Virus record (IMG/VR): IMGVR_UViG_3300025102_000104
Span: 1-36,719 of that record
Reading direction: 5' to 3' (one strand)
Length of the DNA stretch: 36,719 nucleotides
Source of the DNA: a virus
In this document: one piece after another, positions 5,201 through 33,426 of the stretch
How the letters are laid out: every line of letters begins with the position of its first letter
Position numbering within the stretch: the stretch's first letter is position 1
Notes under the pieces: generated by a model
What the model was told of the DNA's origin: nothing
Databases searched by the model: none
The model's input: the letters and a program-made list of their open reading frames with translations, nothing else
Program-made: the position numbers and the translations under genes

Positions 5201-5504
5201 TGGTGGTGGAACTTCTTGGCAATCTGTTAAAACTTCTAATTACACTGCATCAGCAGGACAAGGTGTATTTGCAAACACAACGTCAGCATCATTTACAGTT
5301 ACATTACCAGCATCACCTAGTTTAGGAGATGAGGTTTCAATTAAAGATTATGCAGGTACATTTGATACAAATGCACTTACAGTAGGAAGAAATTCACAAC
5401 CCATAGAAGGCGTAGCTGCAGACTTAACTGTCAGTGTAGAAAGAGCTGGTTTTACATTAGTGTATTCTGATTCTACACAAGGTTGGCTATTGAAAGATAA
5501 ATAA
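2256..5504 (+). CDS. large repetitive tail fibre protein
   Basis: A 1082-residue protein, probably a host-contacting fibre. The N-terminus (ELMATGENAGTWGTKTNTNL, then a helix) is a virion-attachment module common on marine phage fibres. The long middle is built from degenerate short beta repeats: variants of ITLDA-DGGDI-FK, IEGDGTDLTISS, TAATFDMSDAG and SDKDIIFK-NDGG-T recur many times, as expected for a trimeric beta-helical shaft. About residues 425-520 hold a near-duplicated unit with DLFLIDDGAGGT. The last 95 residues (GVFANTTSASFTVTLPASP to the end) form a distinct C-terminal beta domain often found at fibre tips. Its stop overlaps the next ATG by one base, so it is coupled to the propeller genes. 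Confidence 0.8.
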   Translation: MASSFSDLGLELMATGENAGTWGTKTNTNLQIIEKSIAGYVEQAVTSGGTTALSITDGDTTESTSVARHAVIKLTGTITGNSIVTVPDSIEKVYIVTNGTSGAYTVQFKTASGTGITFGVSEKTTRLVYSDGTNIVDAGFGGASDMEGRELVLDADGDTTITADTDDQIDIKIAGADDFQFTANTFTAQSGSTIAAQALTATTITASGIVKTDDTTEATSTTDGSLQTDGGLSVAKDAVFGDDVKLLSDSAVLNFGADSDVSLTHVADTALLLNAAMRLQFRDSGLYIGSNADGDLDIVSDGTAVDSINLESAGGITLDAGTAGSGIIYEDDGTEMARIHNSSSDVILETKVSDKDFVIKGNDGGSTVTAATFDMSDAGTLALNHDLRVADGGQIGSASDADAISISSGGVVTFSQAPVFPDGSINIADIDLDGGTDVGGAIADADLFLIDDGAGGTMRKATASRIKTYMGAATGEFSVANLDIDGATDIGAAIVDADLFIIDDGAGGTNRKVTASRLKTYAQTGVSSAADDITAGDAAVSLTTTSGNITIDAQAGDSDIIFKGTDSSSDITAATFDMSDGGALILEGGVIDVKNRGSQSVVRFYCESSNAHYAQIQAPAHSDFSGNVTLTLPASTDTIAGIAATQTLTNKTLTTPVIAEIDSGSTITLDATTDITLDADGGDIFFKDGGTTIATFTNSSTDFIVESATSDKDIIFKVNDGGSSTEVARFDGDVSAFKMASGKQLQLGAAEEHISGDGTDITFAVGSGGDINIGSGIGLTFGDDGEKIEGDGTDLTISSSAKLNLTATSDVHIPNNVGIVFGGDSEKIEGDGTDLTISANNLTIDAAADIILDAAGNDFNFKAGGTEVLRITNSSSDVIIRPVVDAKDIIFQQRDGTEVARIEDNGTFNIVTDKLAINGTAVTSTAAELNILDGVNSTTAELNIIDGGTSATSTTVADADRVVLNDNGTMVQVAMTDIKTYIGGGTSWQSVKTSNYTASAGQGVFANTTSASFTVTLPASPSLGDEVSIKDYAGTFDTNALTVGRNSQPIEGVAADLTVSVERAGFTLVYSDSTQGWLLKDK
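3534..3821 (+). repeat. near-duplicate coding unit inside the tail fibre gene
   Basis: Two adjacent copies (about 3534-3665 and 3696-3821) each encode a roughly 43-residue unit with the pattern DIDLDGGTDVGGAIADADLF, then IDDGAGGT, then ATASRIKTY. The copies differ at many third positions and at several residues, so the duplication is old rather than recent. A second near-duplicate, encoding EKIEGDGTDLTIS, occurs around 4608-4650 and 4728-4770. Confidence 0.7.
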
Positions 5505-6532
5505 TGGCTAAGTATAAAGATATTGGTGGTACAACCGTTGGGTTTAGAAGCGGTTCAGAAGAATATACATATCCATCTGGATTTGAAGGTTCAATTTATT
5601 ATAATTCTAGTAATGGTCAATTTGAATTTGTAGGTTTAGGCTCTGGCACTTGGGCTACTGGTGGTAATATGAATACAGGAAGATTTAATACTGCTAGTGG
5701 TTTTGGAACACAAACTGCGGGTGCAGTTACTGGAGGACAAACTCCAGCAGATGATTATACAGACAATGTAGAAGAGTATAATGGAACGTCTTGGACTGAA
5801 GTTACTAATACTTCAAGAGATAAATTTGCATCATCTAATTCTTCAGGAACACAAACTGCTGGATTATTATGTGGTGGTTATGTGGAGCCAGCAAGTGGTG
5901 CTGTAAATTCAACAGAAGAATACGATGGTACTAATTGGACAAGTGGTGGAAACTATCCTTTATCTATACAAGTTGGAGCATTAATTGGAACACAGACAGC
6001 GGCACTTTTTGCAAGTGGTGTTGAGCCATCACCTTCAGTAACAGCAGTATGTAATACCTATAATGGATCATCGTGGACTGAAATAGCTGAAATTAATACT
6101 GGAAGAAAACAAGGAACAATAGGTAGTGGAACTACAACTGATGCTATAATTGCAGGCGGTAGAGATAATTCTAATAATGCTTTAAGTGGTGCAGAAACTT
6201 GGAACGGAAGTTCATGGACTGAAGTAGGAGATTTAAATACTGCTAGATTTTTAGCTTCTGGCTCACAAAATGGAGTTTCAACAGCTACTATAGCTGCAGG
6301 AGGATTTGTTTCTCCTAATAATTCTATGACAAATACTGAATTTTGGAATGGAACATCATGGGCAGAAACAAATGATTTATCACAAAAAAGAGCTTACTCT
6401 CAAGGTGCTGGAACAGGAACTCTAGCATTAGCTATGGGAGGTAATACTGGACCAGGAGGTAATCCTGCAATTTTAACAGCAACAGAAGAGTGGACATTTT
6501 CTCACCCTATTAAGACAGTGACAACAAGTTAA
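5504..6532 (+). CDS. kelch-like beta-propeller tail protein, one six-bladed propeller
   Basis: A 342-residue protein. Residues 1-45 form a small N-terminal module (GGTTVGFRSGSEEYTY, SIYYNSSNGQFEFVGLG) that probably anchors it. The rest holds six units of about 45 residues, each with N-T-x-R, T-Q-T-A, a Gly-Gly turn and a closing N/D-G-(S/T)-S-W-T-E strand; WNGSSWTEVGDLNTAR is the clearest copy. This is the layout of kelch/galactose-oxidase-like propellers. By position and fold it is probably a receptor- or glycan-binding tail component, a paralogue of the two following propeller genes. It could also be a decoration protein. Confidence 0.75.
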   Translation: MAKYKDIGGTTVGFRSGSEEYTYPSGFEGSIYYNSSNGQFEFVGLGSGTWATGGNMNTGRFNTASGFGTQTAGAVTGGQTPADDYTDNVEEYNGTSWTEVTNTSRDKFASSNSSGTQTAGLLCGGYVEPASGAVNSTEEYDGTNWTSGGNYPLSIQVGALIGTQTAALFASGVEPSPSVTAVCNTYNGSSWTEIAEINTGRKQGTIGSGTTTDAIIAGGRDNSNNALSGAETWNGSSWTEVGDLNTARFLASGSQNGVSTATIAAGGFVSPNNSMTNTEFWNGTSWAETNDLSQKRAYSQGAGTGTLALAMGGNTGPGGNPAILTATEEWTFSHPIKTVTTS

Positions 6533-6877: not shown

Positions 6878-8698
6878 ATGGCAGAATACAAAGCTATACA
6901 TGGAACTCTGGTTGAGCATAAGACATCTGATCCGTTAGCGGCAGGTATCGATAATGCTACGTGGGCTTCTGGTGGTGCTTTAAACACAGCTAGATCAGAA
7001 TTAGCAGGAGCAGGAGTTCAAACTGCAGCCATAGCTTTTGGTGGACTAGTTTTTCCCCCAAGAGTTGCAAACAATGAATTATATGATGGTAGTAGTTGGA
7101 CTGAAGTTGGAGATTTAAACACAGCAAGATCAACTCACACGGGAATAGGTTTATCAACTGCTGCGTTAGCAGTAGGAGGTCAGACACCAACAGCAGTAGT
7201 GGCTATCACTGAAAGTTGGGACGGTTCGTCATGGACTGAAGTTGGAGATTTAAATTCTGGTAGACAAAATATGACAGGTTCAGGAACAACACCAGCAGCA
7301 TTAATCTTTGGTGGTAACGATGGATCAAATAGAGGTTATACAGAAACTTGGGATGGTAGTAGCTGGACTGAAGCAGGTGATTTAAACACAGCGAGATCAG
7401 ATCTAGCAGGTGCTACAAATGGAACTACAACTGCTACACTAGCTTTTGGTGGTGGCACTAATCCAAAAGCACAAAATGAAAGTTGGAATGGTTCTGCATG
7501 GACAGAGTTAGGAGATTTAAATACAGGTAGACAAAATTTAGGCGGAGGAGGTGTTCAAACAGCTGCTTTAGCATTTGCTGGAGAAACTGTTGCTATTACT
7601 GAAAGTTGGGATGGCTCTTCATGGACTGAAGTAGCAGATCTTTCAACAGCAAGATATGATTTAAATACTGGCGGAGGTGGAGCTAGTAGTTCTTTAGCAT
7701 TAGCATTTGGAGGTAATGCACCAGGTGGTAAACAAACGGCAACAGAAGAATTTACAGCAGCACAAATAACAGATTCAATAAAAAGAGATGGACAAGCTTT
7801 CTATCGTAGTGATACAGGCGACTTTAAAGTTTCATTAACACAATTTGGTACAGGTGCTTGGTCCTCTGGTGGTAATTTAAATACTCCAAGAAATGATTTA
7901 GATGGAGCAGGCAGTGCAACTGCAGGATTAGCTTTTGGAGGAAATCCAGGTAATTCAAATTCTACAGAAGAGTATGATGGAAGTGCATGGACATCCGGTG
8001 GAGCTTTAAATACAGGAAGAAGAGCTTTAACAGGTTTTGGATTACAAACAGCAGCTATAGCTACAGGAGGTTCAGAAGGTCCTTATAACGATGACACAGA
8101 ACAATATAATGGATCTAGTTGGACTGAAATAGCTGAAATTAATACAGCAGGTGGTGGTTCACCAGGTTCTGCTGGCACAACAACTGCAGGTTTAGTTTTT
8201 GGTAGAAGAAAATTACCAGGTGCTACTAAAGGTGGAGAAACAGAAACTTGGGATGGTAGTAGTTGGACTGAAGTAGGGGATTTAAATACTGCTAGATGGG
8301 CGATAGGTGGATTAGGAACTCAAACAGCTGCTTTAGCAGTTGCTGGAGCACCCCCTCATTATGCTAATGTAGAACAATGGGATGGTAGTAGCTGGACTGA
8401 AGTAGGAGATATTAACTCAGCAAGAAGTGCTGGAGGTGCATCTGGAATTACAACGAGTGCTTTATATTTTGTTGGAGAAGATTCAACTGGATCTAGAAAT
8501 TTAACAGAGGAGTGGAACGGAAGTGCTTGGACTGAAGTAGCTGATGCATCAGCTGGTGCTGGTAAAGTTGCAGACTCTGATAATAGTTCTCTAAGTGCTT
8601 TTTTTGCTGGTGGAGATGGTCCTCCAGGTTCTTTTGTTGCAACAACAGAAGAATGGCTTGTACCTGAATCAGTAAGTAATTTAACAATAACGGATTAA
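6878..8698 (+). CDS. kelch-like tail protein, two six-bladed propellers
   Basis: A 606-residue paralogue of the 342-residue propeller. Two sets of six blades can be counted (about residues 28-292 and 325-595), each blade ending in a W-(D/N)-G-S-(S/A)-W-T-E signature. They are separated by a linker (DSIKRDGQAFYRSDTGDFK) resembling the N-terminal module of the 342-residue protein, so the gene looks like a fusion of two linker-plus-propeller units. The conserved blade core alternates with variable loops between the Gly-Gly turn and the closing strand, where ligand-binding differences would be expected. No catalytic copper-site residues are evident, so binding is more likely than oxidase activity. 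Confidence 0.75.
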   Translation: MAEYKAIHGTLVEHKTSDPLAAGIDNATWASGGALNTARSELAGAGVQTAAIAFGGLVFPPRVANNELYDGSSWTEVGDLNTARSTHTGIGLSTAALAVGGQTPTAVVAITESWDGSSWTEVGDLNSGRQNMTGSGTTPAALIFGGNDGSNRGYTETWDGSSWTEAGDLNTARSDLAGATNGTTTATLAFGGGTNPKAQNESWNGSAWTELGDLNTGRQNLGGGGVQTAALAFAGETVAITESWDGSSWTEVADLSTARYDLNTGGGGASSSLALAFGGNAPGGKQTATEEFTAAQITDSIKRDGQAFYRSDTGDFKVSLTQFGTGAWSSGGNLNTPRNDLDGAGSATAGLAFGGNPGNSNSTEEYDGSAWTSGGALNTGRRALTGFGLQTAAIATGGSEGPYNDDTEQYNGSSWTEIAEINTAGGGSPGSAGTTTAGLVFGRRKLPGATKGGETETWDGSSWTEVGDLNTARWAIGGLGTQTAALAVAGAPPHYANVEQWDGSSWTEVGDINSARSAGGASGITTSALYFVGEDSTGSRNLTEEWNGSAWTEVADASAGAGKVADSDNSSLSAFFAGGDGPPGSFVATTEEWLVPESVSNLTITD

Positions 8699-8699
8699 T

Positions 8700-10532
8700 A
8701 TGTCATACGGAAGTGGAAATAGCGGAGATTACAAAAAACTAAAAGGTCAGATGATACAAGTCACTGACACTGATCCAGTTGTGTATGCTGGTGCTTGGTC
8801 TTCTGGTGGTAGTTTAAATACTGCAAGAAGAAGAGTTGGGGCTGCAGGTATTCAAACTGCTGCAATAGCTTTTGGTGGTAGTAGCGATCCTCCAGTAAGA
8901 GCAAATGCTGAACAATACGATGGAACAAGTTGGACTGAAGTAGGTGATTTAAACACAGCTAGAGAAGCAATGGGTCCTAGTTCAAAAGGAAGTCAAACAG
9001 CTGTTTTAGCTGCTGGTGGAAATCCAATTACAACAGCTAACGAATTATGGGATGGAAGCAGTTGGACTGAAGTAGGCGATATTAATACAGGCAGAGAAGG
9101 GTTAGGAGGAGGTGGAACATCAACAGCAGCATTTGTTGCAGGTGGAACCACTGCTACAGCGAGACAAGTTTTATCAGAAACTTGGGATGGTTCTTCTTGG
9201 ACAGAAGTTGGAGACTTAAATGCTGCAAGGTCTTTTGCTGGGATGTTTGGAACACAAACATCTTCTATATTTGCAGGAGGAGATATTGCAACTGGTCAAT
9301 CAGCAGCTAATGAATCTTGGAACGGATCAGCTTGGACTGAAGTAGCAGATTTAAATGAAACAAAAAAAGCTATGGGTGCAGCTGGAACAGATAACACAGA
9401 AGGTTTAGTTTTTGGTGGCGGTGTTCCTGGAAGAACAGCAAACACAGAGACTTGGAATGGTTCTTCTTGGACAGAAGTTGGAAATTTACCTGCGGTAATA
9501 GATAATAATACAGGAGCAGGATCAGAAAGTAGTGCAATAACTGTAGGTGGTCGTAGTGCAACTGCAATTACAGGTGTAACAAATGAATGGTCTTTTCCAT
9601 CAACACCTGTAGTACAAGAAGGACAACTTTGGATTAAAACTGCAACAGGTACTAGTAGTGTTATGAAAGGATACCAGGCTCAAGGGACAGGTGCATGGGC
9701 AACTGGTGGAAATTTAAATGAGGCAAAAAGAGGATTATATTCAGCGGCAGGAGCTAGTTCAAGTGCAGGACTTATAGCTGGCGGACAAACTTCAGACACA
9801 ACTGTAACAGCTAACGCAGAAGAATATAATGGAACAGCATGGACAGAAAAAAGTAATTTAAATCAACAAAGAATGCAAATGTCTACAGCAGGTAGTCTTA
9901 CGGCTGCATTATGTGTAGGTGGAAATGTTCCAGGAGCCTCAGCTTTAGCAGAATCCTGGAATGGAAGTAGTTGGACTGAAGTAGGCGATTTAAATCAAGC
10001 AAGACGTTTAGCTGCACATTGTGGAACAAGCACTGCATCATTATATGCTGGAGGATATACTCCAGATAGTAGTGCTTTAGTAGAATCATGGAATGGTTCT
10101 TCATGGACAGAAACTGGAGATTTAAACACAGCTAGGGAAGAATTAGCTGGATCAGGAACACAACCAGCGATGATAGTTTTTGGAGGAGGTAGCCCTTCAG
10201 TAACAGCAAATGCAGAAAAATGGGATGGCACTGCATGGACAGAAGTAGCTAATTTAAATACAGCTCGAAAAAATTTGGGAGCGTCAACTGGAGGAACATC
10301 TACAGCAGCTTTAGGTTTTGGTGGACAAACTGGAAGTTTAGAAGACGCAACAGAATCTTGGAATGGTAGTTCTTGGACAGAATTAGGTGATATGTCAACC
10401 GCAAGAAAACAATTAAGTGGTAATGGAACACAAGTAAGTGCTCTAGGTGCAGGGGGTTTTACAGACGACAATGTAACATCAACAGAAGAATGGACAGTTC
10501 CATTTGTAACTAAAACAATAGGCACAGATTAG
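8700..10532 (+). CDS. kelch-like tail protein, two six-bladed propellers
   Basis: A 610-residue protein starting 1 base after the preceding stop, with the same design as its upstream neighbour. A short N-terminal module (about residues 1-30) and six blades are followed by a linker (VVQEGQLWIKTATGTSSVMK) and six more blades ending in TEEWTVP. Blade signatures such as WNGSSWTEVGDLN recur nearly identically at protein and DNA level, so recombination or conversion between blades and between the paralogues is plausible. It is the last gene before a sigma70-like promoter, so it ends the adhesion module. Confidence 0.75.
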   Translation: MSYGSGNSGDYKKLKGQMIQVTDTDPVVYAGAWSSGGSLNTARRRVGAAGIQTAAIAFGGSSDPPVRANAEQYDGTSWTEVGDLNTAREAMGPSSKGSQTAVLAAGGNPITTANELWDGSSWTEVGDINTGREGLGGGGTSTAAFVAGGTTATARQVLSETWDGSSWTEVGDLNAARSFAGMFGTQTSSIFAGGDIATGQSAANESWNGSAWTEVADLNETKKAMGAAGTDNTEGLVFGGGVPGRTANTETWNGSSWTEVGNLPAVIDNNTGAGSESSAITVGGRSATAITGVTNEWSFPSTPVVQEGQLWIKTATGTSSVMKGYQAQGTGAWATGGNLNEAKRGLYSAAGASSSAGLIAGGQTSDTTVTANAEEYNGTAWTEKSNLNQQRMQMSTAGSLTAALCVGGNVPGASALAESWNGSSWTEVGDLNQARRLAAHCGTSTASLYAGGYTPDSSALVESWNGSSWTETGDLNTAREELAGSGTQPAMIVFGGGSPSVTANAEKWDGTAWTEVANLNTARKNLGASTGGTSTAALGFGGQTGSLEDATESWNGSSWTELGDMSTARKQLSGNGTQVSALGAGGFTDDNVTSTEEWTVPFVTKTIGTD

Positions 10533-10574: not shown

Positions 10575-11243
10575 ATGGATAAAGAAAAACGAAATATACA
10601 GACGTTAGCAACTACGCAATCTAAATATTTATCAGATATATTAGATGTCGAAGATGTTAAAGAGTTTAAGTCATTAATTCCTGAGCTAAAAGATACTTGG
10701 AAAAAGAAACAAGTATTTAGAACAGAAACAGAGATGAGATTTTCTGTATTATCAGATAATAAATATCCAACAAGAGCAGCTAAATATTGGCAGTGTGTTA
10801 GAGAACAAAATACACACTTTGAAAATTTAATGCACTTATCATTTGATGCTAGAAAAAATGATGTAGAGATAGAAAAATTAAGAGTAAAAATTAAAGAAGA
10901 AAAAAATAAACTAGAAAAACAATTATTACAAATAGAATTAGAAGAAAAAATATATGGCAAAGCAAGCATGGAACTTGTAGCTAAACACAGAATGAGAGAA
11001 GTAGCTACATGGTCTAAACTTAAAAAAGAATTTCATGATGGATCGTTTGATGACAAAGATGTAAATACACATCAAGCACATTCATATAAATTAAGATTAG
11101 AACATCAAAAAGCAACACTAACACCAGGCTCCTCTCAACCAGAGGTATTTAATGTATTAGGACAATTAAATACATTAGATAGAGTTATGAGAGAAGGTGA
11201 ATTGTTGCCTAATAAAGAAAAGAAAAAAATAAAAAGAAAGTAA
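10575..11243 (+). CDS. coiled-coil protein, unknown function, first gene of oxygenase operon
   Basis: A 222-residue highly charged protein. Residues about 90-135 form a strong Lys/Glu heptad region (EIEKLRVKIKEEKNKLEKQL). A conserved-looking C-terminal half contains MREVATWSKLKKEF and QAHSYKLRLEHQKA, and the end is very basic (NKEKKKIKRK). It has no signal peptide or membrane helix. I recognise no family, though similar proteins occur in marine phage genomes as hypotheticals. It starts just after the promoter at 10535-10563 and ends 1 base before the first oxygenase gene, so it is probably co-expressed with the four dioxygenases; a scaffold or substrate role is possible but unsupported. Confidence 0.65.
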   Translation: MDKEKRNIQTLATTQSKYLSDILDVEDVKEFKSLIPELKDTWKKKQVFRTETEMRFSVLSDNKYPTRAAKYWQCVREQNTHFENLMHLSFDARKNDVEIEKLRVKIKEEKNKLEKQLLQIELEEKIYGKASMELVAKHRMREVATWSKLKKEFHDGSFDDKDVNTHQAHSYKLRLEHQKATLTPGSSQPEVFNVLGQLNTLDRVMREGELLPNKEKKKIKRK

Positions 11244-11244
11244 T

Positions 11245-11907
11245 ATGAAATTTGACTTTGTTTATCTTGGTCAGACCGTTCTTAAATATCAAGTTCCTTT
11301 AGAAATTTTTGTTGGTCTCAATGATATATACGAAAAACGTAAAAAAGAATTACCTAAAGCCAATAAACAACTTGTAGGTAAAATAGAAGATGAAGTATCT
11401 TTATTTTATTCTGGTCCTAACAACAATAAAATGCATCAACATTCTTTTTTATCTCAAGATATACTAATGTGGTTTGATTCTATTTTTGATCATTATCTTA
11501 CATGGAATAAAATAGGTGAAAACCAAAGAGCAATAAATTCTATATGGGTTAATGAAATGAAAGCACATGAGTACAATCCAATACATATTCATCAAGGTAA
11601 ATTATTCACAGGCTTATCATCAGTTATGATTATGAAATTACCAAAAGAAACAGGTATAGAATATTCAGCACCAGACAAACCTATGAATGGAAGACTACAA
11701 ATTATAGGTGCAGCTAATGGTCAGTTTGCTAAAACAGATTATTCTCCTGAATGTAAAATAGGAGACTTTTATGTTTTTCCTTATGACATGAGACACTGTG
11801 TTTATCCTTATAATAATAGTAAAGAAAAACGTAGAACATTAGTTTGTAATGTTGATGTTGATTATAATCCGGTATCATCAAGAACAGCTGGAGGACAATT
11901 AGAATGA
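11245..11907 (+). CDS. 2OG-Fe(II) oxygenase-like protein 1
   Basis: A 220-residue protein with features of the double-stranded beta-helix oxygenases that use 2-oxoglutarate and Fe(II). HIHQG (His114, His116) fits the first part of the metal triad (H-x-H type), followed by a strand like the SGVYY strand of the third copy (FTGLSSVMIMKL). GDFYVFPYDMRHCVYPY supplies the distal His184, and KRRTLV supplies an Arg for 2-oxoglutarate. The N-terminal 100 residues are helical and unlike the other three copies. The substrate is unknown. Its stop overlaps the next start (ATGA), so the cassette is translationally coupled. This is the least standard of the four by motif. Confidence 0.65.
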   Translation: MKFDFVYLGQTVLKYQVPLEIFVGLNDIYEKRKKELPKANKQLVGKIEDEVSLFYSGPNNNKMHQHSFLSQDILMWFDSIFDHYLTWNKIGENQRAINSIWVNEMKAHEYNPIHIHQGKLFTGLSSVMIMKLPKETGIEYSAPDKPMNGRLQIIGAANGQFAKTDYSPECKIGDFYVFPYDMRHCVYPYNNSKEKRRTLVCNVDVDYNPVSSRTAGGQLE

Positions 11908-12485
11908 TTATAAAAATGCCAAGATGGCAATCTTACATGGCTACCACAACAGAACCTTTGTTTACTCCACAACAATGTCAAGATATTATAAATGCAGGTC
12001 ATTCAGAAAAACCACAAGTGGCACAAGTGGGTATGAACAAACCAGGTGGTGGCGTTGATAAGAAGAAAAGAACAACAACAATATCTTGGATACCATTTAA
12101 AAAATTACCAGAAATGTATAAAAAAGTAGAACATCAATTATCATTAGTAAACTTAAATCATTTTGGTTTTGAAAATGTACATATAACAGAACCTGCACAG
12201 TTTACAGAATATCCTAAAGGTGGATTTTATGATTGGCATATGGATTTAGATGTTAACGGTCAACACGAACCACCAGTTAGAAAAATATCTATGACGTGTT
12301 TATTATCTGATCCATCTACGTTTACAGGTGGTGAATTAGAATTTACAGAAAAACATAAAATAAATAATTTAAAACAAGGACAAGCTATATTCTTTGCATC
12401 ATTCTTAAGACATAGAGTAGCTCCTGTAAAAAAAGGAATTAGGAGGTCTTTGGTTATGTGGTTTGGAGGCCAACCTTTTAAATGA
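11904..12485 (+). CDS. 2OG-Fe(II) oxygenase 2, prolyl-4-hydroxylase-like
   Basis: A 193-residue protein with the clearest dioxygenase core of the four. YDWHMDLD gives H112-x-D114, GGELEF is the typical mid-barrel turn, FFASFLRHRVAPV gives the distal His170, and KGIRRSLVMWFGG gives the 2-oxoglutarate-binding Arg180. Length and order fit P4Hc/PiuC-like proteins of phages and bacteria. Family reactions hydroxylate proteins, peptides or small molecules; the substrate here is unknown. The ATG overlaps the previous TGA. An in-frame ATG at 11916 is an alternative start. Confidence 0.85.
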   Translation: MIIKMPRWQSYMATTTEPLFTPQQCQDIINAGHSEKPQVAQVGMNKPGGGVDKKKRTTTISWIPFKKLPEMYKKVEHQLSLVNLNHFGFENVHITEPAQFTEYPKGGFYDWHMDLDVNGQHEPPVRKISMTCLLSDPSTFTGGELEFTEKHKINNLKQGQAIFFASFLRHRVAPVKKGIRRSLVMWFGGQPFK

Positions 12486-13096
12486 ACCGAGAAATATTAT
12501 TTCCAACTCCTGTCTATTGGAAAGATTTACCTAACGCAAAAGAACTTAATAAATATTTATTTAAACACATAAAAGCTTGGTACAAAAGCGATATTAAAAA
12601 AGGCAAACCTACTGGAGAATTTAAAACTAATTCTGGGTTTGGTTGGCATAGTTCAACAGATATGAATAATAAAAAAGAATATGATCCTTTAATATCAGAG
12701 TTATTTAAGATGGCTGAAGAATGTAATAAAGATTATGGTATTAAACCTAAATTAGGTTTAGGTAATATGTGGGCTAATGTAAGTCCAACTTATTCTTATA
12801 ATAAAACACATACACATCCTAACGCTATGTGGTCAGGTGTATATTATATTAAAGTACCTAAAAATTCTGGTAAGTTGTTTTTAGAAGACCCTAGACCAGG
12901 ACCTAATAATTACATGCCAAGAAGAATAGATAATCTACCTAAAGCCTTATGGCGTGTTATTGCTTATGAAGCAGTAGAAGGTAGAATGATATTTTTTCCA
13001 TCATGGCAACCTCATGGTGTGGACATAAACATGAATACAGAAAAAGGTGAAAAGAACTGGCGTATATCTGTGTCATATAACTTTATACAAATATGA
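12482..13096 (+). CDS. 2OG-Fe(II) oxygenase 3, TIGR02466-like
   Basis: A 204-residue protein. The start (LFPTPVYWKDLP) and the core THTHPNAMWSGVYYIKVP, with H110-x-H112 then WSGVYY, are hallmarks of the small putative oxygenases grouped as TIGR02466/PF13759. FFPSWQPHGVD gives distal His178, and NWRISVSYNF gives Arg194 for 2-oxoglutarate. The metal site is H-x-H...H rather than H-x-D...H, as usual in this group. It overlaps both neighbours by 4 bases (ATGA). The family is common in marine phages, but its substrate is unsettled. Confidence 0.82.
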   Translation: MNREILFPTPVYWKDLPNAKELNKYLFKHIKAWYKSDIKKGKPTGEFKTNSGFGWHSSTDMNNKKEYDPLISELFKMAEECNKDYGIKPKLGLGNMWANVSPTYSYNKTHTHPNAMWSGVYYIKVPKNSGKLFLEDPRPGPNNYMPRRIDNLPKALWRVIAYEAVEGRMIFFPSWQPHGVDINMNTEKGEKNWRISVSYNFIQI

Positions 13097-13743
13097 GTTT
13101 TAAAAAAAACAAATATCAAGTTATTAGAGGAGCTATATCAAAAGAACTAGCAGATATAGCTTTTACTTATTTAAGAATATCAGCAGAAGCAGATTATTGG
13201 TTACTTGCTAATCAAGCAACACACGAAGGTAATTTTTTAATAGGTAATTTTAAAGATAGGCAAGTTCCAAATTCTTATGCAAAATATGCAGACCGATTGA
13301 TGGAAACATTACTTGTTAAAACTATACCTATGATGAAAGCTAAAACAGGTTTAAATTTAATACCTACTTACTCATACACAAGATTATATAAAACAGGTAA
13401 TATATTAAATAGACATAAGGATAGACCTAGTTGCGAGATATCAACAACACTTAATTTAGGTGGTGATCCATGGCCTATCTATATTGATCCCACAGGGTCT
13501 AACAACGTCATAGATGAATATAAAGGTATAATGAAACCAAATGCTCCTAAAGGAAATAAAGTAGATTTAAAACCTGGCGACATGCTTATATATTCTGGCT
13601 GTGAATTAGAACACTGGAGAGAACCGTTTCAAGGTAAGTTATGTGGTCAAGTATTTTTACATTATAATCATGCAAATGGACCCTTTGCAAAGTCTAATTT
13701 ATATGATAAAAGACCATTATTGGGTATACCCAAAACTCGTTGA
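13093..13743 (+). CDS. 2OG-Fe(II) oxygenase-like protein 4
   Basis: A 216-residue protein. RHKDRPSCEISTTLNLGG gives H108-x-D110 with the following strand, LKPGDMLIYSGCELEHWREP gives the distal His174, and GKLCGQVFLHYNHA places Lys182 where the 2-oxoglutarate carboxylate contact is expected. The N-terminal half is helical (KELADIAFTYLRI) with a conserved-looking TYSYTRLYKTGN before the barrel. This arrangement is typical of phage P4Hc-like proteins. It overlaps the previous gene by ATGA and ends the four-gene cassette; a 34-base gap with a TATAAT box follows. Substrate unknown. Confidence 0.78.
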   Translation: MSFKKNKYQVIRGAISKELADIAFTYLRISAEADYWLLANQATHEGNFLIGNFKDRQVPNSYAKYADRLMETLLVKTIPMMKAKTGLNLIPTYSYTRLYKTGNILNRHKDRPSCEISTTLNLGGDPWPIYIDPTGSNNVIDEYKGIMKPNAPKGNKVDLKPGDMLIYSGCELEHWREPFQGKLCGQVFLHYNHANGPFAKSNLYDKRPLLGIPKTR

Positions 13744-13777: not shown

Positions 13778-15925
13778 ATGTTACAAAAAGTTAAATTTGC
13801 ACCTGGATTCAATAAACAAGTCACTGCTACTGGAGGCGAGAGCCAATGGGTTAACGGAGATAATGTTAGATTTAGATATGGCACACCTGAAAAAATTGGT
13901 GGTTGGTCTCAATTAGGTTCGGTTGCAGTAACGGGTCGTAATACAGCTATTCATCATTTTATCAATACGTCAGGTATTAAGTACGCTGTGCTTGGAACAA
14001 ACAGAATTTTATACGCATACTCAGGTGGTATATTTTATGACATACATCCACTTAAATCTACAACAACATTAACTAGTGCTTTTTCTACAACTAACGGATC
14101 AGCAGTTGTAACATTAACATTTGCATCAGCACATAATATTAATCAATTCGATATTATCTTATTAGATAATTTTACATCTATAACAAACTCTGGTTTTACA
14201 TCAGCTAACTTTGACGATAATAAATTTATGGTGACCACAGTGCCAACAGATACAACGATAACAATTAACGTTGGATCAAATGAATCAGGCAGTGGTGCCA
14301 CTACATCAGGCGGTATTAGAGTTAGACATTATTATCCAGTTGGTCCAGCTGTAGAAGTTGCATCAACAGGTTGGGGATTAGGACCTTGGAGTGGTTTTAA
14401 AACAGGACAATTTACATCAACACTATCCTCAAGTATCAATGCATCCGTTACAAGTTTAACAATGGCTAGTTCAACTTCTTTTCCATCTTCAGGAACGGTA
14501 TTGATTGATAATGAACTTATTACTTATACAGGTAACAGTGGTGGCACATTATCTGGTTTGACAAGAGGAGCTTCAGGAACCACAGCAGCAACACATTCAT
14601 CAGGAGCTACAGTGACTGATGCATCTAATTTCTTTGCGTGGAATGCTGCAGCGTCAGGCGACGTGGTAACAGCACCAGGATTATGGTCATTAGATAATTT
14701 TGGTAATAAACTTATTGCAACTATTAATAGTGGTGAAACGTTTGAGTGGGACTCTAATCCTACTGGAGCTAACAACACAAGAGCAACGATTGTGTCAGGT
14801 GCACCAACAGCTTCTGCACTTTCTTTAGTATCTACACCAGATAGACACTTAATATTTTTTGGCACAGAAACAACGATTGGAACTAAATCTACACAAGATC
14901 CTATGTTTATAAGATTCTCTTCTCAAGAAGATATTAACACTTATGCACCATCAGCAACGAATACAGCAGGCACACAGAGACTTGCAGATGGATCAAAAAT
15001 TGTAGGATGTATTAGAGGTCGAGATGCAATTTACGTTTGGACAGATACAGCATTATTTATTATGAGATTTGTTGGTCCACCATTTACTTTTTCATTTCAA
15101 CAAGTTGGTACGAACTGTGGATTGATTGGACAGAACGCAGCGGTCGAAGTTGATGGTACAGCTTATTGGATGTCTGAAAATGGTTTCTTTAGATATACAG
15201 GTAAATTAGAGTCATTACCGTGTTTGGTTGAAGACCACGTATTTGATGATATTAATACAACGCCAAAACAACATATTAATGCAGGTTTAAATAATTTGTT
15301 TGGTGAGGTAATGTGGTTCTATCCTAACTCAGGATCAGGAACTGTAAACAGAGTAGTAACTTATAATTATTTAGACTCGTCTCCTCAAAGACCAGTGTGG
15401 ACTACAGGAACATTAGCTCGAACATCGTGGCAAGATTCTGCTGTATTTGGTAAACCTCACGCAACAGAGTATGATGAAGACGGAGAAACAGCAGACACAG
15501 ATGTTAACTATGTTCACGGAAACACTGACGGTACATCTACATATTACGAACATGAAACAGGATTAAACCAAGTTAAAGAAGGTGCAACTACAGCTATTGC
15601 TGCTAACATAGAATCAGGAGACTTTGATATAGGTCAACAAGGATTAGCTGGCGATGGTGAGTTTATGATGAAAATAAGAAGAGTGATACCAGACTTTTTA
15701 TCTCAAACAGGAGATGCAGTAGTAACTTTAAATTTAAGAGATTTTCCAAATGATACACAAGCTAGTTCTACATTAGGACCATTTACTATTACAAGTGGTA
15801 CACAGAAAATAGATACACGAGCTAGAGCGAGATCTATATCTTTAAAAATAGCTAATACAAGCACAAGTCAGTTTTGGAAATTAGGCACATTTAGAATAGA
15901 CTATCAACCGGATGGAAGAAGATAA
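13778..15925 (+). CDS. packaged-DNA stabilisation / tail hub protein, P22 gp10-like
   Basis: A 715-residue protein. The start (KVKFAPGFNKQ, WVNGDNVRFRYGTPEKIGGW) is the signature of the phage stabilisation family (P22 gp10, Phage_stabilise), which forms the hub closing the tail channel after packaging. Later segments (ATPDR-like STPDRHLIFFGTE, FSSQEDINTYAP, GRDAIYVWTDTALFIMRFVG, FQQVGTNCGLIGQNAAVEVDGTAYWMSENGFF split by short spacers) form a beta-propeller-like body. About residues 226-275 are an inserted beta domain (FPSSGTVLIDNELITYTG, LTRG, THSSGATV) often present in marine phage copies. It is the main evidence for P22-like tail architecture. Confidence 0.85.
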   Translation: MLQKVKFAPGFNKQVTATGGESQWVNGDNVRFRYGTPEKIGGWSQLGSVAVTGRNTAIHHFINTSGIKYAVLGTNRILYAYSGGIFYDIHPLKSTTTLTSAFSTTNGSAVVTLTFASAHNINQFDIILLDNFTSITNSGFTSANFDDNKFMVTTVPTDTTITINVGSNESGSGATTSGGIRVRHYYPVGPAVEVASTGWGLGPWSGFKTGQFTSTLSSSINASVTSLTMASSTSFPSSGTVLIDNELITYTGNSGGTLSGLTRGASGTTAATHSSGATVTDASNFFAWNAAASGDVVTAPGLWSLDNFGNKLIATINSGETFEWDSNPTGANNTRATIVSGAPTASALSLVSTPDRHLIFFGTETTIGTKSTQDPMFIRFSSQEDINTYAPSATNTAGTQRLADGSKIVGCIRGRDAIYVWTDTALFIMRFVGPPFTFSFQQVGTNCGLIGQNAAVEVDGTAYWMSENGFFRYTGKLESLPCLVEDHVFDDINTTPKQHINAGLNNLFGEVMWFYPNSGSGTVNRVVTYNYLDSSPQRPVWTTGTLARTSWQDSAVFGKPHATEYDEDGETADTDVNYVHGNTDGTSTYYEHETGLNQVKEGATTAIAANIESGDFDIGQQGLAGDGEFMMKIRRVIPDFLSQTGDAVVTLNLRDFPNDTQASSTLGPFTITSGTQKIDTRARARSISLKIANTSTSQFWKLGTFRIDYQPDGRR

Positions 15926-24855: not shown

Positions 24856-25055
24856 TCTTCTCTATCATCGTGCCAGCGTTCATTAATTTTGCCAGCTAAC
24901 CAAGCAGCGATAGGTATACATAATATAAACGTAATTTCTGCTGCTCTTTGTATGCTAACATCAAAACGATACATTACATAGTAATGAATTAATATTGGGG
25001 AAAAAGCTCCTACACATAACAATATAGCCATACGATAATGAAAAGGTGGTTTCAT
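24852..25055 (-). CDS. small two-helix membrane protein
   Basis: A 67-residue minus-strand protein starting at ATG 25055, which overlaps the stop of the helicase gene as ATGA; a TTG two codons upstream (25061) is the alternative. Two hydrophobic segments (about residues 9-28, RMAILLCVGAFSPILIHYYV, and 36-56, RAAEITFILCIPIAAWLAGK) are joined by a short loop, and the tail is charged (NERWHDDRED). The plan fits a class II holin or an envelope protein such as a superinfection-exclusion factor. Coupling to the SNF2-like helicase rather than to lysis genes makes a holin role uncertain. Confidence 0.55.
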   Translation of the reverse strand: MKPPFHYRMAILLCVGAFSPILIHYYVMYRFDVSIQRAAEITFILCIPIAAWLAGKINERWHDDRED

Positions 25056-26485
25056 ATCCAAGCTTTTAATTCTTCACCCATAACTTGAGTAGCTATGTTT
25101 ACTTTTTTACGTAAAGCTTTTACTATTTTTTCATCAACAGTTTTTTCACACATAATATCAATATATGTCATAGGCATTTTTTGTCCAATACGATCTATTC
25201 TAGCTTCTGATTGCATTCTTTTTTCAAGATCATAACCATTAGAATAATATATCATAGTTGATGCTCCAGTAAGTGTAATACCATATCCACCTGTTTGTGG
25301 TGTGCCTATAATAAATCTAACAGAACTTTTAGGATCTTGCATTTTTTTAATAGCTTTCTGTCTATCTTCAGTTGATGTATCACCAAAATAAGTTACATAA
25401 GAGTTATCCCCATACTCTTTTTTGATATGTTTCACTATTGTTTCTATATCGTTCCTCCAATGTGCCCATATTACAACTTTACCTTGTATCTCTTCTAATG
25501 TGTCCATAAGTTCTACAATACGATTATTTTTTATTTCTTGTGTAGTTCCATCATCAGATTTAAAATGACCACAAGTAATTTGTTGTAAACGCATAAGTTG
25601 TGTCATAGCTGTTGCAGTTGTACTTAATTTACTATTCATAATAGCTAATGCACTTTTTTTCATTTGAGTGTATAATTTTTGTTGTTCATCTGTAAGTTGT
25701 ATTATTCTTTTTGTATATGTTTTAGCAGGTAAGTCTAAACAATCATCTTTTAAGACACGATAAGAAAAACTTGTAAGTTTATTGGACAGTTCTGGAATAT
25801 TTTTGTATCCAACCACAATTTGAACTGATCTACCACCAAAGTTTGCAGTTTTCATAACCGCAAATCTTGTTCTAAAACTATAATAAGATTGATGACCTAA
25901 CAACCATGGATCTAAAAATTCACATTGTTTATATAAATCTAATGGTGATTTAGTTACAGGTGAACCTGTTAATATTCTTCTGTATTTTGTTTGTCTACCT
26001 AACCTACAAATACTTTTAGTTCTTTTAGCATCAGGGTTTTTTATAGTAGTTGATTCATCGATAGCCATTAGAGTTTCATGACAGCTAATAAATTTGGTAA
26101 CAAAATCAACACCTTTTTTAGTAGACAAAGCCTCTACATTTACAATTAATACGTGTAGTTCATGACCTGTTTTAAACAGTTTAGATAATTCTTTTTCTTG
26201 TTTTTTATTAATATTAGATTGCCACAATACTGACACATGTTCGACATGATCTGCCATATGTGTTGGTATCTCTAGTTCATGCCAGTTTTTATATACACCT
26301 TTTGGTGCCACAATTACGACACCATTTATTTTGCCTTTATCATACAGCATAGATACGTTATCTATTAATACTTTTGATTTACCTGTTCCCATCTCCATAA
26401 AAAGCGCAAACACTTCTTTATCCCAAGACATTTTTAACGCTTTCAACTGATGTGCGTATGGTTTAGTTTTAAACTTGTAGTTCAT
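25052..26485 (-). CDS. SNF2-like superfamily 2 helicase/ATPase
   Basis: A 477-residue DNA translocase. Residue order: a Q-motif-like AHQLKAL, Walker A MEMGTGKSK (residues 30-38), motif Ia VIVAPKGVYKNW, motif II DEST (143-146), motif III LTGSPV (172-177), then the C-terminal RecA lobe with VIWAHW, GTPQTGGYGITLTGA and motif VI QSEARIDRIGQ (425-435). All core motifs are present, so it should be active. Length is normal for compact phage SNF2-like proteins. Possible roles are replication-fork remodelling, recombination or protein displacement. It is on the opposite strand from the rest of the window and has its own near-consensus promoter. Confidence 0.9.
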   Translation of the reverse strand: MNYKFKTKPYAHQLKALKMSWDKEVFALFMEMGTGKSKVLIDNVSMLYDKGKINGVVIVAPKGVYKNWHELEIPTHMADHVEHVSVLWQSNINKKQEKELSKLFKTGHELHVLIVNVEALSTKKGVDFVTKFISCHETLMAIDESTTIKNPDAKRTKSICRLGRQTKYRRILTGSPVTKSPLDLYKQCEFLDPWLLGHQSYYSFRTRFAVMKTANFGGRSVQIVVGYKNIPELSNKLTSFSYRVLKDDCLDLPAKTYTKRIIQLTDEQQKLYTQMKKSALAIMNSKLSTTATAMTQLMRLQQITCGHFKSDDGTTQEIKNNRIVELMDTLEEIQGKVVIWAHWRNDIETIVKHIKKEYGDNSYVTYFGDTSTEDRQKAIKKMQDPKSSVRFIIGTPQTGGYGITLTGASTMIYYSNGYDLEKRMQSEARIDRIGQKMPMTYIDIMCEKTVDEKIVKALRKKVNIATQVMGEELKAWI

Positions 26486-31329: not shown

Positions 31330-31592
31330 GTGTATACAAAAAACAAATTGGCGGAAGCCACTATCGAAACATGGTTTTGCAGCCAAGTGAGTTTATCAAC
31401 AAGAACAGGTTGCTTTTTGCAGAAGCATCCGCTATAAAATATATATGCAGACATTCTGCTAAAGGAAAGGAAGAAGATATTAAAAAGGCAATACATTATC
31501 TAGAAATGATTTTAGAACGAGATTATTCAGAAAATAAAAAAGAATCTTGGGCTGAAGGTTATAAAAAATGGAAAAAACAAAATGATATTTAA
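31326..31592 (+). CDS. DUF3310-family small phage protein
   Basis: An 88-residue protein. ATG 31326 is chosen because AAAGGAG is about 8 bases upstream and the start MSVYKKQIGGSHYRNMVLQP fits the family; it overlaps the helicase stop as ATGA. The core pattern (GGSHY, PSEFI, LFAEASAIKYICRHSAKGKE, EDIKKAIHYLEMILE) is that of DUF3310. These proteins are widespread in phage replication regions and are sometimes labelled nucleotide kinase, but no P-loop is present here and that label is unsupported. Probably an early replication-associated accessory protein. Confidence 0.8.
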   Translation: MSVYKKQIGGSHYRNMVLQPSEFINKNRLLFAEASAIKYICRHSAKGKEEDIKKAIHYLEMILERDYSENKKESWAEGYKKWKKQNDI

Positions 31593-33426
31593 AGCACAGA
31601 CAGAGTGGGTAAAACCTACAGAGTTTCCTGACTTACGTCATGCACAAGAAATAGCCATTGATTTAGAGACGTATGATCCTGATTTAAAAAAATTAGGCAC
31701 AGGGTCTGTTATTGGTAGAGGTAAAGTTGTAGGTATAGCTGTAGCCACAGACGGATATTCTGGTTACTTTCCATTTGATCACGAGGGTGGTGGCAATCTT
31801 GACAAAAATTTAGTTATGAAATGGTTTAAAGATGTTTGTGAATCAACAGCAGATAAAATATTTCACAATGCTATGTATGATGTTTGTTGGATTAGATCTA
31901 TGGGTTTTAAAATAAATGGTAGAATATACGACACAATGATTGCAGCATCTTTGGTAAACGAAAATAGATATAGATATGATCTTAATAGTTTAGGTTGGGA
32001 TTATGTTGGTCAAGGTAAAAATGAAACAGAGTTAACTAATGCAGCACAAGAATGGGGACTAGATCCTAAAGCAGACATGTGGAAATTACCCGCATTATAC
32101 GTAGGTAATTACGCAGAAAGGGATGCAGAGCTTACCTATTCTTTGTGGAGAGTCATGCAAAAAGAATTAAGCGACCAGGATCTAGGATCTATATTTAATT
32201 TAGAAACAGATTTGTTTCCGTGTTTAGTTGATATGAGATTTAAAGGGGTTCGTGTCGATACCGAATCCGCTCATAAATTAAAACAACAGTTAAGTACAGA
32301 AGAAAAAACGTTATTATCAGAAGTAACCAAAGAGACAGGAGTAGAATGTCAAATATGGGCAGCACGAAGCATTGCCAAAGTTTTTGACAAATTAAAATTA
32401 CCTTATGAAAGAACTGAGAAAACACAGGCACCATCATTTACTAAAAACTTTCTGTCTAATCATGAACATCCTTTGGTTAAGAAGATAGCAAAAGCCAGAG
32501 AAATAAACAAGGCACACACAACATTTATAGACACTATAATAAGATATGAACATAAAGGTAGAATACATGCGGATATTAACCAGATAAGATCTGATCAAGG
32601 TGGCACAGTCACTGGTAGATTTTCATATTCTAATCCTAATTTACAACAGATTCCTGCTCGTAATAAAGACCTCGGTCCACTGATTCGATCCCTTTTTATA
32701 CCAGAGTCAGGTTGCGAGTGGGGATGTTTTGATTACAGTCAACAAGAACCAAGACTAGTAGTTCATTATGCATCCCTAGACCAAGACACAAGTGTGTTTG
32801 GTGTTAAAGAAGCATACGATGATGGAGACGCAGATTTTCATACTATCGTTGCAAAGATGGCAGACATACCTAGATCTGCAGCAAAAACAATTAATCTTGG
32901 ATTATTCTATGGTATGGGTAAAGCAAAGCTACAAGCAGAACTTGGTGTAAGTAAAAATAAAGCTGAAGAACTATTTAATATTTATCACAGTAGAGTTCCA
33001 TTTGTTAAGTCATTAATGAACTCAGTTTCTAACAGAGCACAGCAACGAGGACAAATAAGAACGTTACTTGGAAGACTATGCCGGTTTCATTTATGGGAGC
33101 CAAATAGTTTTGGTATGCATAAAGCATTACCATTTGAACAAGCTGTCCAGGAACATGGACCAGGCATCAAGCGTGCTTACACTTACAAAGCATTAAATAA
33201 ATTAATACAAGGATCAGCTGCTGACATGACAAAAAAATCTATGTTAGATTTATATAAGGAAGGAATTGTCGCACATATACAAATACATGATGAGTTAGAT
33301 ATTTCTGTTGAGTCATCAGAGCAAGCTAAAAAAATTGTTGAGATTATGGAGAATGCTGTTAAATTAGAAATCCCTAACAAAGTTGATTATGAATTTGGTA
33401 AAAACTGGGGAACAATTAATGATTAA
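31582..33426 (+). CDS. family A DNA polymerase with 3'-5' exonuclease
   Basis: A 614-residue replicative polymerase of T7/Pol I type, overlapping the previous gene by 11 bases. Exonuclease motifs: Exo I IDLET (Asp27, Glu29), Exo II FHNAMYDV (Asn96, Asp100), Exo III YAERDAEL (Tyr177, Asp181). Polymerase: TGRFSYSNPNLQQIPAR (344-360), motif A CFDYSQQEPRL with Asp384, motif B (O-helix) RSAAKTINLGLFYG (431-444), and motif C QIHDELD with His569, Asp570, Glu571. The residue equivalent to E. coli Phe762 is Leu439. There is no 5' nuclease domain. All catalytic residues are present, so it should be active in both directions. Confidence 0.95.
   Translation: MIFKAQTEWVKPTEFPDLRHAQEIAIDLETYDPDLKKLGTGSVIGRGKVVGIAVATDGYSGYFPFDHEGGGNLDKNLVMKWFKDVCESTADKIFHNAMYDVCWIRSMGFKINGRIYDTMIAASLVNENRYRYDLNSLGWDYVGQGKNETELTNAAQEWGLDPKADMWKLPALYVGNYAERDAELTYSLWRVMQKELSDQDLGSIFNLETDLFPCLVDMRFKGVRVDTESAHKLKQQLSTEEKTLLSEVTKETGVECQIWAARSIAKVFDKLKLPYERTEKTQAPSFTKNFLSNHEHPLVKKIAKAREINKAHTTFIDTIIRYEHKGRIHADINQIRSDQGGTVTGRFSYSNPNLQQIPARNKDLGPLIRSLFIPESGCEWGCFDYSQQEPRLVVHYASLDQDTSVFGVKEAYDDGDADFHTIVAKMADIPRSAAKTINLGLFYGMGKAKLQAELGVSKNKAEELFNIYHSRVPFVKSLMNSVSNRAQQRGQIRTLLGRLCRFHLWEPNSFGMHKALPFEQAVQEHGPGIKRAYTYKALNKLIQGSAADMTKKSMLDLYKEGIVAHIQIHDELDISVESSEQAKKIVEIMENAVKLEIPNKVDYEFGKNWGTIND

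Follow-up and report, generated by a model that had tools for sequence, protein, structure and literature searches.

A near-fixed run of four oxygenase-fold genes linked to kelch-like adhesins in a pelagiphage-like virus

Why would a virus carry four different genes of the 2-oxoglutarate (2OG)-Fe(II) oxygenase kind in a row among its tail genes? This question is raised by positions 11245–13743 of the IMG/VR virus record IMGVR_UViG_3300025102_000104, the whole of which (36,719 bases) was analyzed and is referred to here as the window. The 4 genes, all on the plus strand, were named OX1 (11245–11907, 220 amino acids [aa]), OX2 (11904–12485, 193 aa), OX3 (12482–13096, 204 aa), and OX4 (13093–13743, 216 aa). 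Each overlaps its successor by the 4 nucleotides (nt) ATGA, which confirms the coordinates and the coupling given in the original prediction, an earlier reading of the DNA by a model. Median ratios of nonsynonymous to synonymous substitution rates (dN/dS) of 0.087 to 0.106 across OX1–OX4 indicate purifying selection, and the genes are therefore real and constrained rather than decaying. They probably share one late transcript with the tail genes. A dedicated promoter upstream, as had been proposed, was not borne out: the gap before OX1 measures 1 nt, and a promoter scan returned 27 matches against 24.3 ± 5.4 in shuffled sequence, none of them directly upstream of OX1.

Membership of the Fe(II)/2OG superfamily could be established by curated family for OX1–OX3 and by predicted fold for OX1 and OX4. 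OX1 (PF13759, 40.5 bits), OX2 (PF13640, 54.9 bits), and OX3 (PF13759, 74.7 bits) all exceeded the Pfam cut-off of 27 bits for their families. OX3 is also a member of TIGR02466 (121.3 bits, cut-off 62.5), of which OX1, at 18.8 bits, is not. Among solved structures in the Protein Data Bank (PDB), OX3 matched 3bvc (E 1.1e-10) and the P4H/PKHD-like OX2 matched PiuC (9ghl, E 8.6e-8), although its 57.4 bits against the family of PKHD-type hydroxylases (YbiX/PiuC) fell under the curated cut-off of 143. No significant PDB match at the sequence level was found for OX1 or OX4, profiles included, so that a structural route was needed, and AlphaFold2 models were built for these 2 proteins from alignments of their homologs. 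The OX1 model (predicted local distance difference test [pLDDT] 87.2, predicted template modeling score [pTM] 0.86) lay nearest in Foldseek to 3bvc (E 3.6e-7) and 2rg4, both uncharacterized PF13759-like structures, followed by 2OG oxygenases, with the prolyl-4-hydroxylase of Pseudomonas putida among the best matches. That same enzyme, in complex with EF-Tu (4iw3, E 7e-9), was the best match of the OX4 model (pLDDT 93.3, pTM 0.89), ahead of other prolyl hydroxylases; at 12–14% identity, the likeness is one of fold. The expected double-stranded beta-helix was found in both predicted structures, that of OX4 being prolyl-4-hydroxylase-like.

The metal triad predicted for each of the 4 genes was invariant among diverse homologs, as H114-x-H116…H184 in OX1 (43/43), H112-x-D114…H170 in OX2 (39/39), H110-x-H112…H178 in OX3 (35/35), and H108-x-D110…H174 in OX4 (45/45). 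The described split into 2 H-x-D and 2 H-x-H types thus holds. OX2 and OX4 carry the canonical H-x-D/E…H iron triad; OX1 and OX3 have H-x-H…H instead in all homologs, and are placed in the superfamily by fold and Pfam rather than by that triad. Judging from the sequences, iron in OX1 and OX3 may be bound at an unusual site of three histidines. H-x-H likewise aligns in the solved PF13759 relatives 3bvc and 2rg4, and such a metal site is possible for PF13759-type proteins at large.

The additional claim of a basic 2OG-anchoring residue in each protein stood for OX1 (R196/R197, 43/43 homologs) and OX2 (R180, 39/39), mostly for OX3 (R194, 31/35), and not for OX4. In OX4, the residues 10 and 12 positions beyond the distal histidine are an invariant cysteine and glutamine (C184 and Q186, 45/45), K182 is variable, and invariant arginines lie at other places (R97, R111, and R176). 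Based on its model, OX4 is best described as a protein with a 2OG-oxygenase fold that may or may not depend on 2OG. The divergence of the 4 proteins had been taken as an argument against simple recent duplication; OX1 and OX3 are, however, distantly homologous (profile–profile E 1e-7), making an old duplication possible. The remaining profile comparisons were weak or insignificant.

The identity of OX4 bears on published work. It matched no Pfam and no NCBIfam family, while all 45 homologs matched phrog_2954 and phrog_3531, both named ferrochelatase, a name that is also found on the records of HTVC023P gp67, HTVC033P gp58, and HTVC008M gp068. None of these 45 homologs matched the ferrochelatase models in Pfam, even at E 10, and the top 50 PDB fold matches of OX4 included no ferrochelatase; prolyl hydroxylases and further 2OG oxygenases made up most of them. 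We therefore rejected the assignment as ferrochelatase made in PHROGs and in the pelagiphage papers. Pairs of a 2OG oxygenase and a ferrochelatase have been interpreted as partner metabolic genes (PMC9599517; PMC11561400); on present evidence, which for OX4 is a predicted structure, such a pair appears to consist of 2 oxygenase-fold enzymes. A literature search, judged from titles and abstracts and without most subscription journals, found nothing clearly relevant to a prior correction of the label. The label is widely used, and published claims on phage heme and iron metabolism and on seasonal enrichment partly rest on it.

The surroundings of OX1–OX4 suggest where their substrate may be sought. 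The run had been described as flanked by tail adhesins and the tail hub. Indeed, a gene for a tail hub/stabilization-type virion protein (13778–15925, plus strand; phrog_3287 virion structural protein, 4.2e-107) starts 34 nt after OX4, and 3 genes for kelch-like repeat proteins lie upstream; the direct upstream neighbor, however, is a gene for a conserved 222-aa protein, which we named UP (10575–11243, plus strand; phrog_1409, 2.4e-5). The kelch-like proteins, our candidate substrates, are encoded on the plus strand at 5504–6532 (342 aa; phrog_27227, 2.8e-64; 5 [WY][ND]G repeats), 6878–8698 (606 aa; 2e-159; 10 repeats), and 8700–10532 (610 aa; 2.2e-159; 10 repeats), the latter 2 matching the same family; the last of them scored 20.8 bits against Kelch_6, below its cut-off of 25.3. 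Together, they contain 25 near-identical [W/Y]-[N/D]-G-[S/T]-x-W-T-E repeats, in which Asn/Asp, Gly, Trp-Thr-Glu, and Leu-Asn are conserved.

Linkage was assessed across non-redundant IMG/VR contigs, from which near-duplicates were removed and in which close relatives were kept. Most contigs used for counts of gene order were gathered with the oxygenases as bait; those anchored on the kelch or hub genes were not. The gene after OX1 was OX2 in 153 of 156 cases, and that after OX2 was OX3 in 175 of 184, for the most part with the 4-base overlap seen in the window; the complete order OX1-OX2-OX3-OX4 was found in 139 contigs, some with a ParB-like insert. UP stood directly before OX1, with no gene between, in 93 contigs. 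As the original prediction had anticipated, the cassette co-occurs with kelch-like genes. Of 41 kelch-anchored contigs that continue for 3.5 kb or more downstream, 39 carried all 4 genes in order, even though the kelch proteins of most of these contigs are about 41–53% identical to the query. Conversely, a kelch-like gene lay upstream of 77 of the 79 cassettes that begin with OX1.

The hub-anchored set, 42 contigs that extend 2 kb or more upstream of the hub gene, pointed the same way. The 17 oxygenase-bearing contigs included none with arrays of approximately 200-aa adhesins, the 15 with such arrays included none with oxygenases, and 10 had neither (Fisher p 4e-5, uncorrected for relatedness). 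These arrays fill the slot of the window's kelch and oxygenase genes and look like an adhesin repertoire. They consist of up to 9 tandem, overlapping, beta-rich open reading frames (ORFs) of phrog_14820 upstream of the hub (contigs L183, L186, L194, L201, and L215). That they might be extra oxygenases was considered and rejected, as a representative had no Pfam match and matched phrog_14820. Cassettes that begin with OX2 and lack OX1 (OX2-OX3-OX4) were mostly found beside glycine-rich adhesins (e.g., contigs L188 and L189), and OX1 and UP therefore look like kelch-specific parts of the cassette. Separately, parts of the cassette were seen beside T4-like neck genes (gp13/14/15-like) in contigs L116, L149, L283, L275, and L143, which indicates that it is shared between phages of the podovirus and myovirus types.

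Some relatives carry additional genes within or beside the cassette. A sulfotransferase gene (PF00685, 50 bits) is present in 29 of the 157 OX1-bearing contigs; in many relatives, it lies between UP and OX1, in some cases accompanied by a gene resembling adenosine 5'-phosphosulfate (APS) kinase and a gene for a small nucleotidyltransferase. The 130-aa APS-kinase-like insert scored 25.7 in Pfam against a cut-off of 21.1, but other small kinases score equally. Such combinations of sulfotransferase, APS-kinase-like protein, and small HxGH nucleotidyltransferase (L019:7606–8004, L010:5658–6002, and L144:3314–4108) could form a sulfation module of the 3'-phosphoadenosine-5'-phosphosulfate (PAPS) type adjoining the oxygenases; phrog_10255 joins the kinase and the nucleotidyltransferase in one profile. 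ATP sulfurylase was considered for the 114-aa insert and rejected as unproven, since the models that it fits best are nicotinamide mononucleotide (NMN) adenylyltransferase-like. In 32 contigs, a 138-aa ORF with a ParB N-terminal domain separates OX3 from OX4 (e.g., L030:8328–8744).

Homologs of OX4 also occur in bacterial chromosomes. A genome scan, confirmed by genome search, detected them at 34–42% identity in Mucilaginibacter, Methylobacter, Methylomonas, and Polaromonas. All 5 bacterial loci tested had another 2OG oxygenase or an Asp/Asn hydroxylase within about 4 kb; 3 of the 5 had a sulfotransferase, 1 had PqqD with an Asn synthase, 1 an Asn synthase, and 1 tail-collar proteins. These contexts are those of peptide or adhesin modification, for which reason a polypeptide substrate is preferred. 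One Methylobacter chromosomal cluster (L343:1934–7278, and L344, whose gene content was read by similarity to L343) combines the OX4 homolog with an Asp/Asn beta-hydroxylase, a sulfotransferase, and phage-tail-collar proteins. A lone OX4 homolog (L330:3992–4705, 49% identity) was further observed on a Rickettsiales-labeled, otherwise chromosomal-looking contig, where transfer from a phage is possible.

Together, these observations lead us to favor a role in the modification of the virion itself. OX1–OX4 would be non-heme iron oxygenases that hydroxylate polypeptides, with the tail adhesins of the virus itself, namely the kelch-like repeat products of the genes just upstream, as the best candidates. 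In some relatives, the neighboring sulfotransferase would sulfate the new hydroxyl groups, and these modifications could tune how stable the adhesin is or how it binds its receptor. Catalytic activity, a polypeptide substrate, the adhesin as that substrate, and hydroxylation before sulfation are all steps that we infer. That the cassette hydroxylates the virus's own tail adhesins is offered as a tentative reading that could well prove wrong. We prefer it because of the co-occurrence in 39/41 kelch-anchored contigs, the kelch neighbors of 77/79 OX1-first cassettes, and the absence of oxygenases from all 15 array-bearing contigs; because the structures nearest to OX4 in fold are those of prolyl hydroxylases of proteins, among them the enzyme acting on EF-Tu; because of the sulfotransferases and the bacterial contexts of OX4; and because glycine-rich adhesins adjoin OX2-OX3-OX4 in L188/L189 and, similarly, the oxygenase run of HTVC008M. 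The conserved positions of the kelch repeats would be obvious places for hydroxylation. The broader proposal, of a dedicated system for adhesin hydroxylation (with sulfation in some relatives) that would draw on oxygenase families also present in bacterial clusters modifying peptides or tail-collar proteins, seems doubtful to us. If true, it would be a post-translational modification of virions of a form undescribed in the papers found.

Several observations weigh against this reading. The last strand of OX4 is without the basic residue that usually anchors 2OG, the sulfotransferase is absent from the window, and in one contig with kelch and UP genes (L389), in which T4-like neck genes follow, no oxygenase lies within 3.9 kb. 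Families OX2–OX4 also occur beside adhesins that are almost without the [WY][ND]G motif, and a single target motif common to all cassette-linked adhesins was rejected for that reason. Finally, the contigs are phylogenetically non-independent, and the linkage may reflect module hitchhiking. The multi-step modification system of the original prediction survives in part. None of the outcomes that it had named as refuting turned up, given the 2 beta-helix models, the invariant triads, and the strong co-occurrence of the genes, and action on tail proteins is reasonable; since subsets (OX2-OX3-OX4, or OX3 with another oxygenase) stand beside other adhesin types, the enzymes may work in parallel and not in series.

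The slot between adhesin and hub could also be a recombination hot spot, with each oxygenase an independent accessory gene that has its own, unrelated target and is by chance carried along with one adhesin module. The occurrence of subsets and extra oxygenases (OXx36, OXx47), the ParB-like insert in 32 contigs, and the opposite strand of the oxygenase gene in HTVC027P are in line with this; the near-fixed order with 4-nt overlaps (OX1 then OX2 in 153/156) and the co-occurrence with kelch genes that have themselves diverged favor joint function, and we consider hitchhiking unlikely. Glycans and lipids are common substrates of sulfotransferases, which would suit a different target, namely a lipid, lipopolysaccharide, or glycan of the infected cell, hydroxylated (and in relatives sulfated) to block, for example, superinfection or re-adsorption. 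Glycosyltransferases downstream in HTVC023P and HTVC027P add to this, but the position in a late structural block, the strict pairing with adhesin type, and the PqqD/Asn-synthase context of a bacterial OX4 homolog, which points to peptides, make such modification of the host surface quite unlikely.

Hydroxylation of host proteins during takeover, such as translation factors, is suggested by the P. putida prolyl-4-hydroxylase, which acts on EF-Tu and is the best structural match of OX4 as well as a match of OX1. Given that this likeness is confined to the fold and that the link to adhesin type would go unexplained, we regard it as improbable. Auxiliary metabolism, as a draw-down of 2OG or a role in iron or heme metabolism, has been proposed for cyanophages and for 2OG-oxygenase/“ferrochelatase” pairs (PMC3037559, PMC9599517, PMC11561400). 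Consuming 2OG needs no 4 divergent, constrained enzymes, however, and the “ferrochelatase” matches no ferrochelatase model and adopts a 2OG-oxygenase fold in its predicted structure, rendering this explanation highly improbable here. Least probable of all is the modification or repair of nucleobases or DNA, 1 of the targets raised in the original prediction. AlkB and TET/JBP enzymes belong to the same superfamily, and a cellular OX4 homolog scored weakly against an AlkB-type Pfam family (22.9 bits, under the cut-off of 31.2), but neighbors for replication or base modification are absent, the best structural matches are hydroxylases of proteins or small molecules, and nothing in the analysis points to nucleobases.

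The virus can be placed among known phages through the rest of the window. The hub protein shares 45–50% identity with its counterparts in HTVC023P, HTVC027P, and 023Pt_psg01, and an SNF2-type helicase gene (25052–26485, minus strand) after the structural block and a DNA polymerase gene (31582–33426) match the HTVC023P-type layout, making the virus a member of this group by hub and gene layout. No near-identical phage DNA was found for the window in the phage collection searched. The host of this marine virus is probably SAR11, the most abundant bacteria of the ocean, judging by the pelagiphage-like relatives.

Within this group, gp65-gp66-gp67 of HTVC023P are adjacent homologs of OX2-OX3-OX4 in the same order as in the window, and homologs of the same 3 genes are found in HTVC033P (gp61-gp60-gp58) and 023Pt_psg01, located between tail-fiber and hub genes or at an equivalent position. 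Unlike in the window, no OX1, UP, or kelch-like family was found with these runs, and their OX3 homologs score only about 40–58 bits against the window family. The myovirus HTVC008M carries 5 consecutive genes of 2OG-oxygenase type (gp068–gp072) between a glycine-rich tail adhesin and neck genes, on the strand opposite to their neighbors; gp068 is OX4, gp072 is OX2-like, gp069–gp071 belong to other families, and no kelch proteins were seen in that stretch. Four oxygenases in a row are thus less exceptional than had been suggested. The “2OG-Fe(II) oxygenase + ferrochelatase” partners of Wittmers et al. 2022 (PMC9599517) come from the same phage group and the same gene families. There, the partner was read as a heme enzyme, the order varies, and the oxygenases are nearby without adjoining, whereas in the type found here OX4 itself has the 2OG-oxygenase fold and the kelch-linked form is near-fixed in order.

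Outside phages, the P. putida prolyl-4-hydroxylase (4iw3/4j25) is the best structural match of OX4, from which the basic 2OG residue usual on the last strand is missing; over its catalytic half, OX2 has PiuC/YbiX as its nearest relatives among solved structures and named families, in a different gene context. The literature search by titles and abstracts likewise found nothing clearly relevant on kelch adhesins beside pelagiphage 2OG oxygenases or on hydroxylated phage tails. Marine phages often carry runs of 2OG oxygenases whose presence is unexplained, and the link to adhesin type suggests modification of receptor-binding proteins. Oxygenase runs at the tail position are of a kind already known from cultured phages; new here are the near-fixed order OX1-OX2-OX3-OX4, the purifying selection, and the linkage to adhesin type.

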